Shown piece after piece: positions 12,055 to 35,336 of a stretch of DNA of 64,000 nucleotides (within the stretch, counting starts at the first letter, position 1; each line of letters opens with the position of its first letter). The notes below the pieces were generated by a model. That model was not told the origin of the DNA. It did not search any database and saw only the letters and a list, made by a program, of their open reading frames with translations. The position numbers and the translations under genes are program-made. Source of the stretch: Exiguobacterium acetylicum DSM 20416 (GTDB lineage Bacteria > Bacillota > Bacilli > Exiguobacteriales > Exiguobacteriaceae); NCBI RefSeq assembly GCF_000702605.1, contig NZ_JNIR01000001.1, positions 1,354,501-1,418,500 of the forward strand, in the 5' to 3' direction.

Positions 12055-12852
12055 TCAGGAACATTTGTAAGAACGAATCGATCCGTGAAGATCGCAGATG
12101 ACCGTCATACATTCATTTCCATCATTAAAGCAAATCTGATGCGACCGTCCGTTTTTGGATGTCGTGATATCGTCAATCCACAGTTGCGAAGCATCTGCCG
12201 AAGACAACATGGCGATTTTGTCGCGAATCATGAATAAATCAAACGGTAACAGATTCAAGGATTGAATCGTTAAACCGTGCTTCCGGAAAAGTGGATCAAG
12301 CTGATATTGCGAGAGACTATACAAACACTTCTCCGCCCCACCAATCAACAACTGAATCGAATGGGAGGGTTCATGACTATCGATTCGCTCCTTATGGAGG
12401 ATGATTCGTCCTCGAACACCAGATTCATTGAAAATCCGTTGCGTATCCTCTTGTGAAAGACGTGGTCCACCATCTTTGACCTTTAGAACGATGTGAGCGA
12501 ATTCTGCGAAATCTGGTTTTCCAATTTCAAGCGCCGGGATATGACGGACTTCTTCACGTTCAATGATTTCAATCAAGTCACGCTCGACTTGGACACTGAC
12601 CGTATCTGTTGAAAAGACACGGACGTCGATCACGAATTGATCGAGTACCGCATTTACTTCGATCGTGTATGTTAAATCAAGGTTTTTTTCTTGTTCAACC
12701 AACAATCGATTCAAGATAAGTTGATGCAATAAATGGACTGGTGTGCGTGAAGAAAATTGACTCGAATAAATCAAATGCTTCGGTCCGGTTCCTTTTGTTG
12801 CTTTTGGTCGTGCTCCGTTTAATCTATATACGTTTACTTTATAATTCAACAT
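12055..12852 (-). CDS. Conserved-looking protein of unknown function
   Basis: A 265-aa protein I do not recognise. No signal peptide, membrane segment or known catalytic motif stands out. It is mixed alpha/beta with evenly spread charge (for example VERDLIEIIEREEVRHIP and HIVLKVKDGGPRLSQ). I chose the ATG at 12852 because GAGAAGGTG lies about 8 bp upstream; the frame stays open 38 codons further up, but that extension is AT-rich, hydrophobic and lacks a ribosome site. It is followed closely by the YocK-like gene, which has its own promoter. No operon partner suggests its role. Confidence 0.7.
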   Translation of the reverse strand: MLNYKVNVYRLNGARPKATKGTGPKHLIYSSQFSSRTPVHLLHQLILNRLLVEQEKNLDLTYTIEVNAVLDQFVIDVRVFSTDTVSVQVERDLIEIIEREEVRHIPALEIGKPDFAEFAHIVLKVKDGGPRLSQEDTQRIFNESGVRGRIILHKERIDSHEPSHSIQLLIGGAEKCLYSLSQYQLDPLFRKHGLTIQSLNLLPFDLFMIRDKIAMLSSADASQLWIDDITTSKNGRSHQICFNDGNECMTVICDLHGSIRSYKCS

Positions 12853-13039
12853 ATGATCACCTTCTCTTACCTGAAAAATCGGAATAGAGATGTTCCGTTC
12901 ATATAGCGTACAATGTATTTTAATCACTAAATATTCGTTTTCGAATATTCCAAATTTAATATACAAATTGTAATCAAATTGTGATAGAAGATTCTTAAAA
13001 ACAGATCTTTTCTATGATACCATTTCGCATTAAAGTCAA

Positions 13040-28613: not shown

Positions 28614-29242
28614 ATGTCACACTTACTATTCATTGAAGCGAACGATAGCACACATCAAAAAAAGGCATTAGCTCTGAATTGAACGATGCCTTTTTGAACG
28701 CGTATCGCGAATCACATCCGGATGATGCAGTTACGGTTTTGAATTTATTTGAAGAACGTCTTCCCTTTTTCGATTTGAAACTTGCGAGCGCAGCAGGTCG
28801 TCTCTTTAAAGGCGAAGAATTAACTGGAGATGACGCGACTCATGCTCAGCGACTTCAAGAGTATTTAAACGGGTTTTTAGACGCCGACAAGGTCGTCTTC
28901 TCATTTCCGATGTGGAACTTGACGGTTCCGGCACCACTGCACAATTATATGGATTACCTTGCCCAAGCTGGTCAAACGTTTCGTTATACGGCAGAAGGTT
29001 CGATTGGGCTTGTTGAAGACAAACAAGTGCTGTTGATTCATTCACGTGGTGGTGATTATTCGACGAAAGAGAAAGCATCGAGTGAGCATGCTGTTCGCTA
29101 CATGCTAGATTTATTAGCATTCTTTGGCATTGAAGATGTATCGACTGTCATTCTCGAAGGACATCAGCAATACCCGGAACGTGCCTCTGAATTAATCAAT
29201 CAAGCGCTTCAAGAGTGCCGACAATTCGGTCGTGAGTTTTAA
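28614..29242 (+). pseudogene. azoR: FMN-dependent NADH-azoreductase, interrupted by a -1 frameshift
   Basis: Flavodoxin-fold FMN:NADH azoreductase/quinone reductase. An ATG at 28614 with AGGAGTAATGTTT upstream opens the expected N-terminus (MSHLLFIEAND), but this frame stops at TGA after 22 codons. The remainder reads in the -1 frame to 29242 with clear AzoR motifs (FSFPMWNLTVPAPLHNYMDY, GGDYSTKE, FFGIEDV). The switch lies at a run of seven A (28657-28663). Adding one A, or a -1 slip on A AAA AAG, joins the two frames seamlessly as QKKGISSELNDAFLNAY. It may be a real mutation, a sequencing error or a programmed shift. It converges with the regulator gene at 29239, and their stop codons overlap. 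Confidence 0.85.
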
Positions 29243-30114
29243 GTGGGGAAGAGAACGTACTCTGCATGTTCTTCCAGAAGTATTTTTTCATGAAGTGGCA
29301 TATTAAATGCTCGAAAGACGGAATAGGCCATCGTAAAATCGCGTTGGATAGCTGAAAGATCGCCATTCAGTTGTTGAGTGAAATATCCTCGCTGATAATA
29401 AAAGTGACCTAAAAAATGACCATCTTCTATTTGAAGACTCTCTTGAATACCTTGTTCGGTGATTTTTAGACCGGCAAGGTATTTTTTTTGCATTAATAGT
29501 TGTTGTCCATAATTATATAAAATCTTGATTCGAACTTTTTTCAATTCGATGGATGGGTAATGCGATTGAATCAATGTTTGAAAGATAGCCTCCGCTAAAT
29601 CGAAGTCACCATGTTCAACATACAAATTTGCTATCGCCATCTGAATTCTTAAATACAGAGTAGCTGATTCAAACCAAAGGTGTTCTTTATTGAGTAATCG
29701 TTCGAGCGATTGAATGGCTTTTTGGTAGTGAAGTTGGCCACTTTTTTCTTGAACGATGACTTGATAATATGCTGCTAAGTCACGAACTTCCTCAAAATCT
29801 ACTGTTGAAAGAATATGTTCGATCATCTTTAAAGAATCGACGTATTGAATAGTGCGCAATAGTTCTCCTAATTGCTTGTCATACGATTGAAAAACATCAC
29901 TTCGTAAATGATCTTGAAACAACATCGACAATGGTACCTTTAATCGTTTTGCGACTTGTTGTAGCAAATCGATGGTGGGTGAGTTTTTACCATTTTCGAT
30001 TTTACTAATTTCAGCTTGGCTACAAATACCTTCACACAATTCTGATTGTGTAATCTTTTTTTCTTTTCGAATTCTCTTGATTTCATAACCAATCGAGACG
30101 GGTAAGTGATCCAT
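29239..30114 (-). CDS. PlcR-type HTH-TPR regulator, copy A
   Basis: 291-aa regulator with an XRE-type helix-turn-helix at residues 8-63 (GYEIKRIRKEKKITQSEL, CSQAEISKIENG) and a TPR-rich helical domain from about 80 to the end (motifs LYLRIQMAIANLY, GHFYYQRGYF). The layout and several TPR segments (for example YYQRG) resemble Bacillus PlcR of the RRNPP family, whose TPR domain binds an imported signalling peptide. Ligand and targets here are unknown. It is the last of six tandem paralogues, 28 bp after copy B. Its TAA overlaps the stop of the converging azoR gene and no terminator separates them. Confidence 0.88.
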   Translation of the reverse strand: MDHLPVSIGYEIKRIRKEKKITQSELCEGICSQAEISKIENGKNSPTIDLLQQVAKRLKVPLSMLFQDHLRSDVFQSYDKQLGELLRTIQYVDSLKMIEHILSTVDFEEVRDLAAYYQVIVQEKSGQLHYQKAIQSLERLLNKEHLWFESATLYLRIQMAIANLYVEHGDFDLAEAIFQTLIQSHYPSIELKKVRIKILYNYGQQLLMQKKYLAGLKITEQGIQESLQIEDGHFLGHFYYQRGYFTQQLNGDLSAIQRDFTMAYSVFRAFNMPLHEKILLEEHAEYVLFPT

Positions 30115-30142
30115 TATATCTTCCTTTCTTTCACTTCCATCA

Positions 30143-31009
30143 TCACATTTGAAAGTGGAGAAATTGTTTTTTACCTTTCAAGACTAACGCGGCATGATTC
30201 TCATTGCCAAAGGCAGTAAAAAGAAAATAGGCATGAGTAAACGCATCACGGATATCACACTTTCGATAATTCAATTCTTCATAGAAACATCCTCTTTGAT
30301 AAAAGAAATGTCCTAACATCGCTGTATCTTTTCGTTCGATGGATAAACAAATCCCTTGTTCAGCAACCTGTAGTCCTGTTTTAAAGTCATTTTGAAAATA
30401 CAACTGTTGCGCATGATTATATATGATTTTACACTGTAATTTTTTAAGTGCATGTGTCGAATAATCATACGATAATAACCCTTCATATATTTTTCGCGCA
30501 TATGGATATTGACCGTTCAAGTAATAATAGTTCGCGACCGACATTCGAATACGTAAATAAAGAACAGGATACTCTATTTCCATTTGATTTTCTTCCGATA
30601 AGCGAAGCAATTGGGAGATACATGTCCGGTAATCGATATCTTTTTTACCTTCGCGAGCAACCCATTCAAAATAATGAATCAATAATTGAACGGAAGGAGG
30701 AAGATTAGGTGGTAAACGTTTCATAAATTCTAGCATTTCATCATAACGATGTTGCCTAGAAAAGTCGGATAGTTGTAAATCATAATGTTGAAATAGCTTT
30801 ACTTCATTTGAATCGATGAAGATTTGCTCCATTGAAATATGTAATTTTTGGGACAAACGTGGAACAAGATCGATGATTGGAATTATTTTCCATTTTTTCA
30901 ATTTTACTTAATTCTGCTTGACTACATACATCTTTTGCCAATTCTTTTTATGTTAAATTTTTCTCGATTCGTAGTTTTTTATTTGTTTACCAAATGACTC
31001 GATACGCAA
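30143..31009 (-). pseudogene. PlcR-type HTH-TPR regulator, copy B, decayed
   Basis: A sixth paralogue whose DNA-binding part is ruined. The TPR part is open from 30901 to 30143 (252 aa, motifs LYLRIRMSVANYYY, GHFFYQRGCF). Upstream, the helix-turn-helix can be read only by switching frames: one A is missing in the tract at 30975-30980, a TAA at 30948-30950 replaces an expected CAA (Gln), and extra bases at the A-tract 30893-30898 shift the frame again. The residues between are plainly the family HTH (LRIEKN, KELAKDVCSQAELSKIE). A TPR-only product from a TTG at 30901 is conceivable but has no clear ribosome site. Confidence 0.85.
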
Positions 31010-31046
31010 ACTTCCTTCCCCTTTCTTGTATTTTTTTGTAGTAATC

Positions 31047-31928
31047 TTAGTCCAGTACAGATTGTAGAAAAGAACGTTTCGTCTTTAGAACGATGGTAGC
31101 GTATTGTTTCATCTGAAAAGCAGAGAATAATTCATACGCCATCGTATAATCATGTTTCATCTGCATAAAATTCGTATCCATCCGTTCATGAAACTCGCCA
31201 CGTTGATAATACAAGTGCGCTAAGTAGGAAGTCTGTCTCAATTGTCGACTGAGCTGTATGCCTTCCTCGATGATACGAAGACCCTTTTGAGACTGATCCA
31301 TTTTATATAATAATTTTGCATAGTTATAAAGGATCTTTAGTCGCTCACTCTTCAGACCACTGATTTCTGTAGTGATGCGTAATACTTCATCATAAATTTT
31401 TTCTGCTTGTTGATACTGTCCGCACTCTGCATATAAAATGGATAATGCCATCTTGATTCGAAAGTAAAGCATCGGATCTTTCACCCATAAATCCTCTTGA
31501 TCCATCCATCGCGTAAATAAAACGGAGGTCGTTCGATAATCAACTTGTTTTTTTCGATAATCAATCACAATTTCATAGTAGGTTATTAATCGTCTTATTT
31601 CATCAGCAGAATCCTCTACTGAGATTTGTTTCATTTCATGAGAACATTCATCAAAAGCATTCTCGCGTAGTAAGGTACTAAGTTTTTGATCAATGATATT
31701 TGCCTGCTCCAATTGATGTTCAGAATCGCTCTTTAATAAGTCTGATATAGGAACACGAAGTACTGTTGCGATTTGTCGTAATAATTCCACAGTCGGCATC
31801 GTCTTCCCGTTCTCAATCTTACTAATTTCAGCTTGACTACAAATCCCTGCACTCAGATCTTTTTGCGATAAACCATTCAACTGTCGAAAAAATTTTAGTT
31901 TTTTACCAATTGGATGTTCGTCCTTCAT
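31047..31928 (-). CDS. PlcR-type HTH-TPR regulator, copy C
   Basis: 293-aa intact paralogue. HTH at residues 7-62 (IGKKLKFFRQLNGLSQKDL, CSQAEISKIENGKTMP), then a TPR domain (MLYFRIKMALSILYAE, AHLYYQRGEFHERM). The ATG at 31928 is preceded by AGAGGTGATTAG. A terminator ends the upstream F-E-D group, so copy C probably has its own promoter in the roughly 40 bp between, though I see no clear -35/-10. Copy B begins 37 bp after its stop. Peptide-responsive control is inferred from the PlcR likeness only. Confidence 0.88.
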   Translation of the reverse strand: MKDEHPIGKKLKFFRQLNGLSQKDLSAGICSQAEISKIENGKTMPTVELLRQIATVLRVPISDLLKSDSEHQLEQANIIDQKLSTLLRENAFDECSHEMKQISVEDSADEIRRLITYYEIVIDYRKKQVDYRTTSVLFTRWMDQEDLWVKDPMLYFRIKMALSILYAECGQYQQAEKIYDEVLRITTEISGLKSERLKILYNYAKLLYKMDQSQKGLRIIEEGIQLSRQLRQTSYLAHLYYQRGEFHERMDTNFMQMKHDYTMAYELFSAFQMKQYATIVLKTKRSFLQSVLD

Positions 31929-31968
31929 CTAATCACCTCTTTGAAATAAACGAGTTGCACTTTTCATG

Positions 31969-31997
31969 AAAAAACCTTCTTGTTTACCAAGAAGGTT
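31969..31997 (-). terminator. Terminator after copy D
   Basis: The stem AACCTTCTTG / CAAGAAGGTT around GTAAA is followed by TTTTCATG on the minus strand. It separates transcription of copies F-E-D from copies C-B-A. Confidence 0.85.
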
Positions 31998-32011
31998 ACG
32001 TATCCTTTTTA

Positions 32012-32893
32012 TTAATTCTCAAAGGTAAACAACATATACGGTTCCTTCATACGAAGAATCATCTTTTTCCGAACGTCGTGTTCAAATGCATGAAATAGTG
32101 CATAGGCGACTGAATACTGTTTTTGGAGTGACTTCTCATCCTCACCTGAGTATTCATCATAGTGAGCGAGTTGATAATAAAAATGACCGAATAGAAATGT
32201 ATGATTATGCATCAAGCATAACTCATATCCTTTTTTGGCGATGACGATACTTTCCTCAGACTTCCCTTGGTACTCAAGAATCTGACAATGATTGAAGTAA
32301 ATTTTCAATAGCGCATTTAGATGGGTAGTGGATTGAAGAACTTCGATTTCATTTTCTAATTCCTGATACACGGATTCCGTTAAATAAAATAAGTCCTGCT
32401 CTGAATACATATTCGCAATTGCCATTTTGATTCGAATGAACAATTGAATGGACTGAGACCAGACTTCTTTTTCAATCAACAAGTTGCTGAGTAGGCTTGC
32501 CGCTGCCCGAAAATCGATTCGATTTTGCTTTAGGTCAATGATCGTCTTGATGTAGCTTTTTAAAATGTCGATTTCGACGATGCTATCCTTTTCTTGCTGG
32601 TGAATTCGCTCTAACGCCTCTTTGTATTTCTCTTCTCGAAGCAAATCGGACAAGAATCGATCTAGTTGAAAGAACTTTTCCTCATCGGTATGTTCTTGAA
32701 ACAACAAAGAGATGGGAACTTGCAACCTTACAGCAAGTTGTTGTAATAAATCAACAGTCGGAGAATTTAAGCCGTTTTCAATTTTACTAATTTCAGCTTG
32801 ACTACATAAATCAGCACATAGTTCTTTTTGAGAGTACCCCTTTTGAACACGAAATCGTTTTAAGTTTTCTCCAATTGGATTAGCATTAACCAT
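32012..32893 (-). CDS. PlcR-type HTH-TPR regulator, copy D
   Basis: 293-aa intact paralogue. HTH at residues 7-62 (IGENLKRFRVQKGYSQKEL, CSQAEISKIENGLNSP) and TPR domain (LFIRIKMAIANMYSEQ, GHFYYQLAHYDEY). Copies D and E are the closest pair in the array by eye (RIDFRAAASLLSNLL versus RFDFRTATSLLSNLL), pointing to a recent duplication. GGAGG lies 9 bp before the ATG. It follows copy E by 47 bp and is followed by a terminator. Confidence 0.88.
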   Translation of the reverse strand: MVNANPIGENLKRFRVQKGYSQKELCADLCSQAEISKIENGLNSPTVDLLQQLAVRLQVPISLLFQEHTDEEKFFQLDRFLSDLLREEKYKEALERIHQQEKDSIVEIDILKSYIKTIIDLKQNRIDFRAAASLLSNLLIEKEVWSQSIQLFIRIKMAIANMYSEQDLFYLTESVYQELENEIEVLQSTTHLNALLKIYFNHCQILEYQGKSEESIVIAKKGYELCLMHNHTFLFGHFYYQLAHYDEYSGEDEKSLQKQYSVAYALFHAFEHDVRKKMILRMKEPYMLFTFEN

Positions 32894-32940
32894 TTTATCA
32901 AATCCTCCAAATATCTTAAAACGTCACACTGTGTTTTGAA

Positions 32941-33838
32941 TCATGCTTCGTGTTTAACGGTAGACTCAAAAGTAAACAATAAATAATCTTTCTTTAAGTC
33001 AACGACTAATTGTTTCGTCGTTTGAAATTCAAATGCGTGTAACAATGTATAAGCTATCGTATATGTCTTTTGAAATAAAGCGGTACCGACAGCTTCTTGA
33101 TAATTTCCTAATTGAAAATAAAAATGCCCTAACAGAAAAGTCTGTTGAGATTCTAAGCATAAATTAATTCCTTTTTGAATAAACACATTCGCTTCTTCAA
33201 ATAAATCTTGATACAAAAGAATTTGAGCATGATTAAAATAGATTTTTATCAAAGAAGTAATATATAAGGAACTTTTGAGTCGTTCTAATAGCGTTTCAAT
33301 GTCGGAATAAGTACCTGTAGTTAAATGATATAACTCATGTTCAGCATATATATTGGCAATTGCCGTTTTAATCCGAATGAATAAAGAAATGGATTCGTTC
33401 CAAACATCATACTCGTTTAAAAGGTTACTTAATAAGGAAGTGGCTGTTCTAAAATCAAACCGATTTTGTTTCATATCCACGATGATCCGAAAGTAAGCAC
33501 TTAATATGATTAAATTCATATTATCTTTGTAATCATACTTTGAAATGAATTGTATGATTTGATCAAAATTCTCTTCTCGAAGTTGATCTGAAATAAATTT
33601 ATCAAAAAAATCTATTTCTTCATTAGCTTGAGGATTCTCGAATAAAAGTGCAATCGGACTATTTAAACGAGCGGCAATTTTTTGTAATAATTCTACGGTT
33701 GGTGAATTTAAGCCGTTCTCGATTTTACTAATCTCAGCTTGGCTACAAATACCGTCACATAGTTCTTTTTTGGGTCATTTGATTTTCGATACGTAATTGT
33801 TTAATTTTTGCACCGATTGATGAAGTTAAATCATCCAT
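32941..33838 (-). pseudogene. PlcR-type HTH-TPR regulator, copy E, single frameshift
   Basis: A nearly intact paralogue broken by one base. From ATG 33838 the first 23 codons read MDDLTSSIGAKIKQLRIEN and on to TQK; then a six-A tract (33766-33771 on the plus strand as T) throws the frame to a TGA. Removing one A restores a continuous reading frame of about 298 codons (KELCDGICSQAEISKIENG and so on) to the stop at 32941. The rest, including the TPR part (LFIRIKTAIANIYAE, GHFYFQLGNY), shows no further damage. This could be a sequencing error, a fresh mutation or a phase-variable state. It starts 12 bp after the copy F stop. Confidence 0.85.
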
Positions 33839-33850
33839 CTTCATCATTCC

Positions 33851-34738
33851 TCACTCACTTCCATCTACAGGAAATAGCAATAGCTCTGATAAATGTGTCT
33901 CAAGAATTTTTCGGTATGCGTGATTATTCGTCGCTGTGAAAAATGAATAAGCAATCGTATACGCTTCTTTAATACTTTTCTCGGAAGCGTTTAACGCTTC
34001 TAAAAAGAAGCCCTTTTGATAATAAAAGTGACCAATGTATGTTAAATCTTCTAGCTCTTTTGTTTCTTTTATTGCGTGTTCAACTTCTTTTAACCCTTCC
34101 TCAAATCTCTTTAATCGATATAAGTTACGTAAGTAGTTATATATGATTTTCATTTTAATTTTTTTATACTCGCGTGTTCGATAAGGTAGTTTTAATAACT
34201 CTTTGTAAATTTGGTGAGAATGCATGTAATCCTCATGATTCGTATATAAAACAGCGATTGCCATCTGAATTCTTGTATAGAGAAGAAATGACTTTTCAAC
34301 TAAACTTTCTTCGATAACTAATTTTAATAAAGCAGAGATACATGTTCTAAAATCGATGTTTCCTTTTTCATGCAATAATAGCTTTTGATGATACTGAGTT
34401 AACACTTGAATTTCAAACACAGTATTTGATTTCGCATATTCTTCTAAATCCTTCTCCATAGCTGAGTAAGTTTTCTCTCTCATATGGCGCAACATTCTTT
34501 GATCAATTTCATTTAATTTTTGTGAGACGATCTCATCTTCAAAAAACAATGAAATCGGGATGCGTAGTCTTCGACAAATCTGCTGCAACAGATCAATCGT
34601 CGGTGAATTTCGACCATTTTCGATTTTACTGATTTCAGCCTGACTACAAATTCCCTCACAAAGTGCTTTTTGTGTCATTCCTTGTTTTTTTCGTTCTTGC
34701 TTGATCTTATCACCAACAGATTGAATGACTGGATGCAT
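33851..34738 (-). CDS. PlcR-type HTH-TPR regulator, copy F
   Basis: 295-aa intact paralogue, first of the array. HTH near residues 10-65 (VGDKIKQERKKQGMTQKAL, CSQAEISKIENGRNSP), then TPR domain (LLYTRIQMAIAVLYTNH, GHFYYQKGFFLEAL). I chose ATG 34738 because GAGGAG lies 8 bp upstream; a GTG three codons earlier overlaps that site. It lies just downstream of the tRNA-Thr terminator, and copy E starts 12 bp after its stop, so F, E and D form one unit. Confidence 0.88.
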   Translation of the reverse strand: MHPVIQSVGDKIKQERKKQGMTQKALCEGICSQAEISKIENGRNSPTIDLLQQICRRLRIPISLFFEDEIVSQKLNEIDQRMLRHMREKTYSAMEKDLEEYAKSNTVFEIQVLTQYHQKLLLHEKGNIDFRTCISALLKLVIEESLVEKSFLLYTRIQMAIAVLYTNHEDYMHSHQIYKELLKLPYRTREYKKIKMKIIYNYLRNLYRLKRFEEGLKEVEHAIKETKELEDLTYIGHFYYQKGFFLEALNASEKSIKEAYTIAYSFFTATNNHAYRKILETHLSELLLFPVDGSE

Positions 34739-34775
34739 GGAGGTCACTCCTCAAATCAAAAATATCGAACTCATG

Positions 34776-34820
34776 AAAAAAGTCTTCCGTTTCAAGTATA
34801 TATCACTTGAGACGGAAGAC
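34776..34820 (-). terminator. Terminator after tRNA-Thr
   Basis: A 16-bp stem with one G-T pair (GTCTTCCGTCTCAAGT / ACTTGAAACGGAAGAC) and a 7-nt loop is followed by TTTTTTCATG on the minus strand, 8 bp after the tRNA. Confidence 0.88.
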
Positions 34821-34827
34821 GTGACTA

Positions 34828-34898
34828 TGCTTCCGGCGAGAATCGAACTCGCACTGCAGCATTACCATTGCTGAGGTCTGCCATTAACCTACGGAAGC
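34828..34898 (-). tRNA. tRNA-Thr(GGT), compact form
   Basis: 71-nt cloverleaf. Acceptor GCTTCCG with CGGAAGC and discriminator A; D-arm GGTT-AATGGCA-GACC; anticodon stem CAGCA/TGCTG with loop ATGGTAA, so anticodon GGT. The variable loop is only 4 nt (CAGT) and the T-arm is GCGAG-TTCGATT-CTCGC. G1-C72 and C2-G71 fit threonine identity known from E. coli. The D-arm and short variable loop look more like a tRNA-Gly body. CCA is not encoded. The amino-acid call rests on the anticodon. Confidence 0.88.
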
Positions 34899-34983: not shown

Positions 34984-35181
34984 TTACAATGTAGTTTTCG
35001 TTAGCGAGTTATCATAAACGACTAAAACTGAATAATGTTCATCCGCTTTAGACGCAACGAATGTTGAAAATTTTAATGTAATGATGGCGTTCGATCCGAC
35101 CCCATTATTTTCAAAAAAGTCATTTAGTCTTTCCTCTAATTCTTCAGGCGATCGCCCGACGACTACTTTAGAATGCAACAT
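34984..35181 (-). CDS. Cse60-like small protein
   Basis: 65-aa protein that resembles the Cse60/DUF2758 family, a small sporulation-associated protein in Bacillus (SigE-controlled cse60). The pattern is a short alpha/beta fold: LHSKVVVGRSPEELEERLNDFF, an Ile/Thr-rich strand, and YSVLVVYD near the end (first motif quoted in part: KVVVGRSPEELEERL). I chose ATG 35181, with GGAG 8 bp upstream, over a GTG three codons earlier. Function unknown; a sporulation role should not be assumed for a possibly non-sporulating host. Confidence 0.6.
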   Translation of the reverse strand: MLHSKVVVGRSPEELEERLNDFFENNGVGSNAIITLKFSTFVASKADEHYSVLVVYDNSLTKTTL

Positions 35182-35336
35182 GATCATCACTCCGTTCCGT
35201 TATGGTAGGTTCGAGTTTAGTAATTTCCTTATCGAATAAAAGTTAAACCTTTATTTTTTCGACTTGCCCCACTCTCTCCCTATCCGCTATGGTGAAATGG
35301 AGTCATTCAATTATTGAAGAACAGGAGTGAAGTCTG

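Follow-up and report, generated by a model that had tools for sequence, protein, structure and literature searches.

A tandem array of PlcR-type regulators of variable copy number behind the tRNA-Thr gene of Exiguobacterium

Descriptions of RNPP systems usually involve a single receptor with a single peptide gene next to it. In the Bacillus cereus group, PlcR, which combines an HTH domain with a five-TPR fold (PDB 2qfc, 3u3w, and 4fsc), is encoded by one gene that forms a pair with papR. The glutamate of PapR is bound in PlcR by Lys89, Gln237, and Tyr275 (PMC6568020), and residue N205 of PlcRa, the equivalent of Asn201, was tied by docking to the binding of the peptide main chain (PMC3519770). 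The Alo systems of Paenibacillus are described as peptide-receptor pairs, numbering more than 25 in some species (PMC7425212). RRNPP_detector requires adjacency of the receptor and peptide genes (PMC10075063) and would therefore miss an array of receptors devoid of peptide genes. A literature search for RRNPP regulators and quorum sensing in Exiguobacterium returned nothing among the papers covered, and the RRNPP surveys examined make no mention of the genus.

The window, by which we mean the whole 64,000-nucleotide stretch analyzed here, carries six homologous genes on its minus strand, arranged head to tail (29239-34747). They are named below in the order of transcription, together with the terminator that separates two of them.

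33851..34747, minus strand: copy F, intact PlcR-type receptor of 298 aa (RNPP_C 3.1e-24; PlcR 2qfc 3.1e-30)
32941..33838, minus strand: copy E, HTH frameshifted at the A run 33766-33771; orthologue intact in the G001 genome
32012..32893, minus strand: copy D, intact, 293 aa (RNPP_C 4.1e-13); same lineage as E
31973..31997, minus strand: intrinsic terminator between D and C, a 10-pair stem with a T tail; relatives have one too
31047..31928, minus strand: copy C, intact, 293 aa (RNPP_C 9.7e-26)
30143..31009, minus strand: copy B, pseudogene whose HTH is disrupted by two frameshifts plus a nonsense codon; TPR frame open
29239..30114, minus strand: copy A, intact, 291 aa (RNPP_C 6.6e-24; structure model pLDDT 89.7)

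The start of copy F may be either the ATG at 34738 or the GTG at 34747. An earlier note on this DNA had reported six paralogues in a row on one strand. The six homologues are indeed there on the minus strand, but only four of them (A, C, D, and F) are intact, B and E being broken. These lesions were called against the intact orthologues of the closest relative, G001. Copy E differs from its G001 orthologue by one extra base in the A run. The azoR-like FMN reductase gene of the window (28614-29242) also has its frame broken by a one-base difference in the A run at 28657-28663, which reads A7 in the window and A8 in every relative having the same run. As each of these two frameshifts amounts to a single homopolymer base, both may be sequencing errors. 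The breakage of copy B, a gene that is intact in G001, G010, G016, and G017, is not easily accounted for in this way. The near-invariant HTH motif that had been attributed to every copy, CSQAEISKIENG, occurs unchanged in A, C, D, and F and, in the shifted frame, in E as well. Copy B diverges, reading CSQAELSKIE at this position before its frame breaks. The terminator said to split F-E-D from C-B-A was recovered at 31997-31973.

At its other end the array faces azoR, which is convergent with it, and the stop codons of azoR and copy A overlap. Upstream of copy F lie two further features.

34828..34898, minus strand: tRNA-Thr (GGT), identified by ARAGORN, which immediately precedes the array in each of the 19 genomes
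34776..34820, minus strand: terminator-like hairpin followed by a T run between tRNA-Thr and copy F, recognized by reading the sequence, ~40 bases before the start of F

The hairpin occupies the same place in 18 of the 19 genomes, with compensating changes in its stem, and G005 has a different hairpin. A promoter-like site precedes tRNA-Thr (34939-34911). Because no such site was seen between the tRNA-Thr terminator and F, the array may be transcribed, at least in part, by read-through from the tRNA-Thr promoter. Upstream of tRNA-Thr, the minus strand also contains a 68-aa ORF (34984-35190) with no Pfam match.

The array genes fall within the PlcR branch of the RNPP/RRNPPA family, as they encode an XRE HTH and an RNPP C-terminal TPR domain. 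Pfam RNPP_C scores above its cut-off in all six copies (E values from 1e-10 to 1e-31), and HTH_3 does so in A, C, D, and F. The best PDB match of both F and A is PlcR of Bacillus thuringiensis (2qfc; E values of 3e-30 and 2e-22, respectively). We built a structure model for copy A (mean pLDDT 89.7) and compared it with solved structures. Three PlcR entries come out on top, with Z scores of 25.9, 25.4, and 24.6, and PlcR beats any other solved structure (next match, 18.0). Copy A is thus modeled with a PlcR-like HTH and five-TPR fold. Family profile, PDB matches, and model all agree with the PlcR-type assignment made initially.

The array is present in the 19 Exiguobacterium genomes, in one to six copies and always just behind tRNA-Thr-GGT. 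Each genome has at least one full-length array gene. In the sister genus, 19 genomes yielded no RNPP_C protein. The closest match to azoR there is only ~32% identical, so that synteny could not be used to find an empty tRNA-Thr/azoR site. A phylogeny of 85 proteins unites the array copies in a single clade (support 100/99), separate from the lone PlcR proteins described below, and five old lineages are distinguishable within that clade: F, D/E, C, B, and A. The tree bears out the repeated duplication suggested earlier, and the relatives harbor the same array, not unrelated single-copy regulators.

The window's relatives retain most or all of these lineages, and six intact copies are found in G001. 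Only F and D/E are kept in G003, G004, G014, G015, and G018. The C, B, and A types are kept in G008, G012, and G013, and G007 has C and A types plus a middle gene that is broken. G005 is down to one copy, and broken copies also occur in G002, G007, and G011. The split between F-E-D and C-B-A proposed from the window therefore acquires a biological meaning, as some species keep only F and D/E and others only the C-B-A types. The first array gene of G008, G012, and G013 combines an HTH that groups with the F type (support 99.5) and a TPR domain that groups with C. Grouping of this TPR domain with the F type was rejected (AU test, p = 1e-37), whereas for the short HTH the opposite grouping was not formally rejected (p = 0.08). 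This gene is a chimera of HTH and TPR domains, and recombination within the conserved HTH accounts for it best.

Each genome encodes one further PlcR elsewhere (C1:2249881-2250966, L012:1258-2364, in the window's own genome; L013-L030 in the others), which is the nearest relative of the array copies within the genome. In nearly all genomes where the region is readable, a small gene convergent with this lone plcR encodes a signal peptide followed by PapR-like heptapeptide repeats. The papR of the window genome contains three copies of KTELPYEY. The heptapeptides vary strongly between species (ELPYEY, EIPFEF, GLPLEY, DLPAEF, LLPPEH, and others), and the Glu residue is kept in all. Between sister species, the TPR domain of the lone PlcR differs widely while the HTH stays. 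Thus, G000 and G001 share 91-96% in the TPR domains of the array and only 39% in that of the lone PlcR. This change of pherotype is reminiscent of the pherotypes described for the B. cereus group (PMC7267880). A PlcR-PapR pair much nearer the B. cereus type, with the peptide KTELPFEH, is carried by the 110-kb second contig of G014 (L011:1343-2367).

In the window's own genome, the only PapR-like gene is the one adjoining lone plcR. We screened the hydrophobic small ORFs lying up to 3 kb from the array in the 19 genomes, and none has a PapR-like motif, although peptide genes unlike PapR would escape such a search. Recurrent small ORFs around the array were considered as propeptides and discarded, as they look like antisense or out-of-frame readings of genes.

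The papR promoters point to a putative operator. In every one that could be read, the palindrome TATTCG-N4-CGAATA lies at about -88, with the 6-4-6 layout of the PlcR box. Exact copies number two in 17 of the 19 genomes and three in the other two, versus zero for the reversed control. The third copy is located inside a gene in G015 and between genes, where it is not conserved, in G014. In the genome of the window, the sole exact copy besides that of papR precedes a gene that we named X.

12932..12947, no strand assigned: TATTCG-N4-CGAATA, predicted operator
12055..12852, minus strand: gene X, 265 aa, of no known family; predicted target, with the box 95 bp before its ATG

Gene X is highly conserved. 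All 19 genomes of the genus have it and none of 19 of the sister genus does, a distribution that counts as a single phylogenetic event. It has no match in Pfam or NCBIfam, and the best hit of a fold search (Z 7.0) extends over 57 residues only and is uninformative. Other candidates did not hold up. The PlcR box of B. cereus, TATGNAN4TNCATA, has one site only in the genome of the window, on a small contig. Allowing one mismatch to extend the regulon gave eight sites in the own genome versus 12 in the reversed control, and the lone shared one-mismatch site lies inside an ABC transporter gene. No TATTCG-N4-CGAATA is found near the array, hence there is no visible autoregulation.

The recognition helix, SQAEISKIE, is identical in the array and in the lone PlcR, and it is likely for this reason that they use one operator. 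Their DNA specificity could nevertheless differ, as the HTH domains overall share only ~50%. The PlcR encoded by the G014 second contig, which is plasmid-borne, has the recognition helix SQSEISR. Its papR is preceded by a pair of half-sites, TATG-N8-CATA, at the same place as TATTCG-N4-CGAATA elsewhere. Judging from this plasmid PlcR, box and recognition helix appear to change together.

We compared the peptide pocket in 65 array rows and in the 19 lone PlcRs. Asn201, linked to binding of the peptide main chain, is invariant (Asn in 65/65 array rows). The three residues expected around the PapR glutamate (Lys89, Gln237, and Tyr275) are not jointly retained in the array. Position 237 is His in 59 of the 65 rows versus Gln in all 19 lone PlcRs, and position 275 is Tyr in 36 of the 65 versus all 19, with Tyr or Phe kept in the F and C lineages. 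Position 89 is variable in the array. By these residues, the array copies resemble peptide receptors. As Asn201 is invariant but the residues of the glutamate site are mostly changed, their ligand is probably other than the PapR of the genus.

The array is a genus-specific set of PlcR-type HTH-TPR regulators, variable in copy number and without pheromone genes of their own, and we consider the chances about even that it feeds the PlcR-PapR regulon in the way set out here. It arose by duplication between tRNA-Thr and azoR. Comparison of the genomes shows that it has been reshaped by gene loss and by recombination anchored in the near-identical HTH, the latter placing varied TPR sensors under a constant DNA-binding head. 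Each intact copy probably dimerizes and folds like PlcR, the fold being modeled for A and presumed for the others. The intact copies would bind the TATTCG-N4-CGAATA box predicted for the lone PlcR at papR. The array would in this manner set the output of papR and gene X, either by answering non-PapR ligands or by occupying the box as competitors. A bolder version, which we regard as speculative and rather unlikely, makes of the array an evolving library of swappable sensors mounted on one head. Its members would be solo receptors for signals other than self PapR, including peptides of other species, all converging on the papR/X operator, and HTH-anchored recombination would keep adding sensors behind tRNA-Thr.

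Alternatively, each copy might be the receptor of its own secreted peptide, unlike PapR and encoded elsewhere, and might control its own set of genes with no involvement of the shared box. The invariance of Asn201 agrees with this possibility. The TPR domains are only 24-36% identical between array paralogues (47% for D/E) and conserved within a lineage, as for different stable ligands, and purifying selection acts on the array orthologues (dN/dS mostly 0.04-0.25). However, there is no candidate peptide gene near the array, and the identical recognition helices speak against wholly separate regulons, which leaves this explanation possible but doubtful. We find it unlikely that the array copies bind own or foreign PapR-type peptides and so serve the same regulon as receptors for eavesdropping or cross-talk. 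They do belong to the family of the PapR receptor, the heptapeptides differ between species, so that foreign PapR signals exist, and the F and C lineages have Tyr or Phe at position 275. Yet the peptides all keep the Glu, whereas the residues that bind it are only partly kept in the array, and the array TPR domains do not follow the species' own pherotype.

The gene losses might also suggest that the array is for the most part a decaying remnant of earlier duplications and does little today. Two of the six copies are broken in the window, others are in G002, G007, and G011, and G005 has one copy left. This is very improbable in view of the low dN/dS of most copies and of the persistence of at least one full-length array gene in 19/19 genomes, with all six in G001. 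Moreover, the lesion of E consists of a single homopolymer base, like that of azoR, so that the two may have arisen in sequencing.

Should the papR operator be shared by the copies, the array provides a tractable case in which several receptors converge on a two-target regulon whose pheromone changes between sister species. The persistence of signal-less receptor paralogues and the exchange of sensor domains would then become testable.

Rap receptors of Bacillus, unlike the array copies, have no DNA-binding HTH, and to our knowledge orphan Raps have not been described as tandem arrays with domain exchange. Orphan Raps resemble the array in belonging to the same superfamily and in having no cognate peptide gene (PMC5199041). 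With the Alo systems, the array shares the presence of many paralogous RRNPP receptors per genome (PMC7425212), but it forms one tandem row without peptide genes. The likeness to PlcR-PapR of the B. cereus group lies in the HTH and five-TPR fold and in Asn201. In contrast to this single receptor gene, the array comprises up to six copies with no adjoining papR and a mostly changed glutamate site. The lone chromosomal PlcR of the same genus has the same recognition helix as the array. It differs in its convergent gene for a secreted heptapeptide-repeat propeptide and in its species-level pherotypes, whereas the array has no propeptide and its TPR domains are conserved between sister species.
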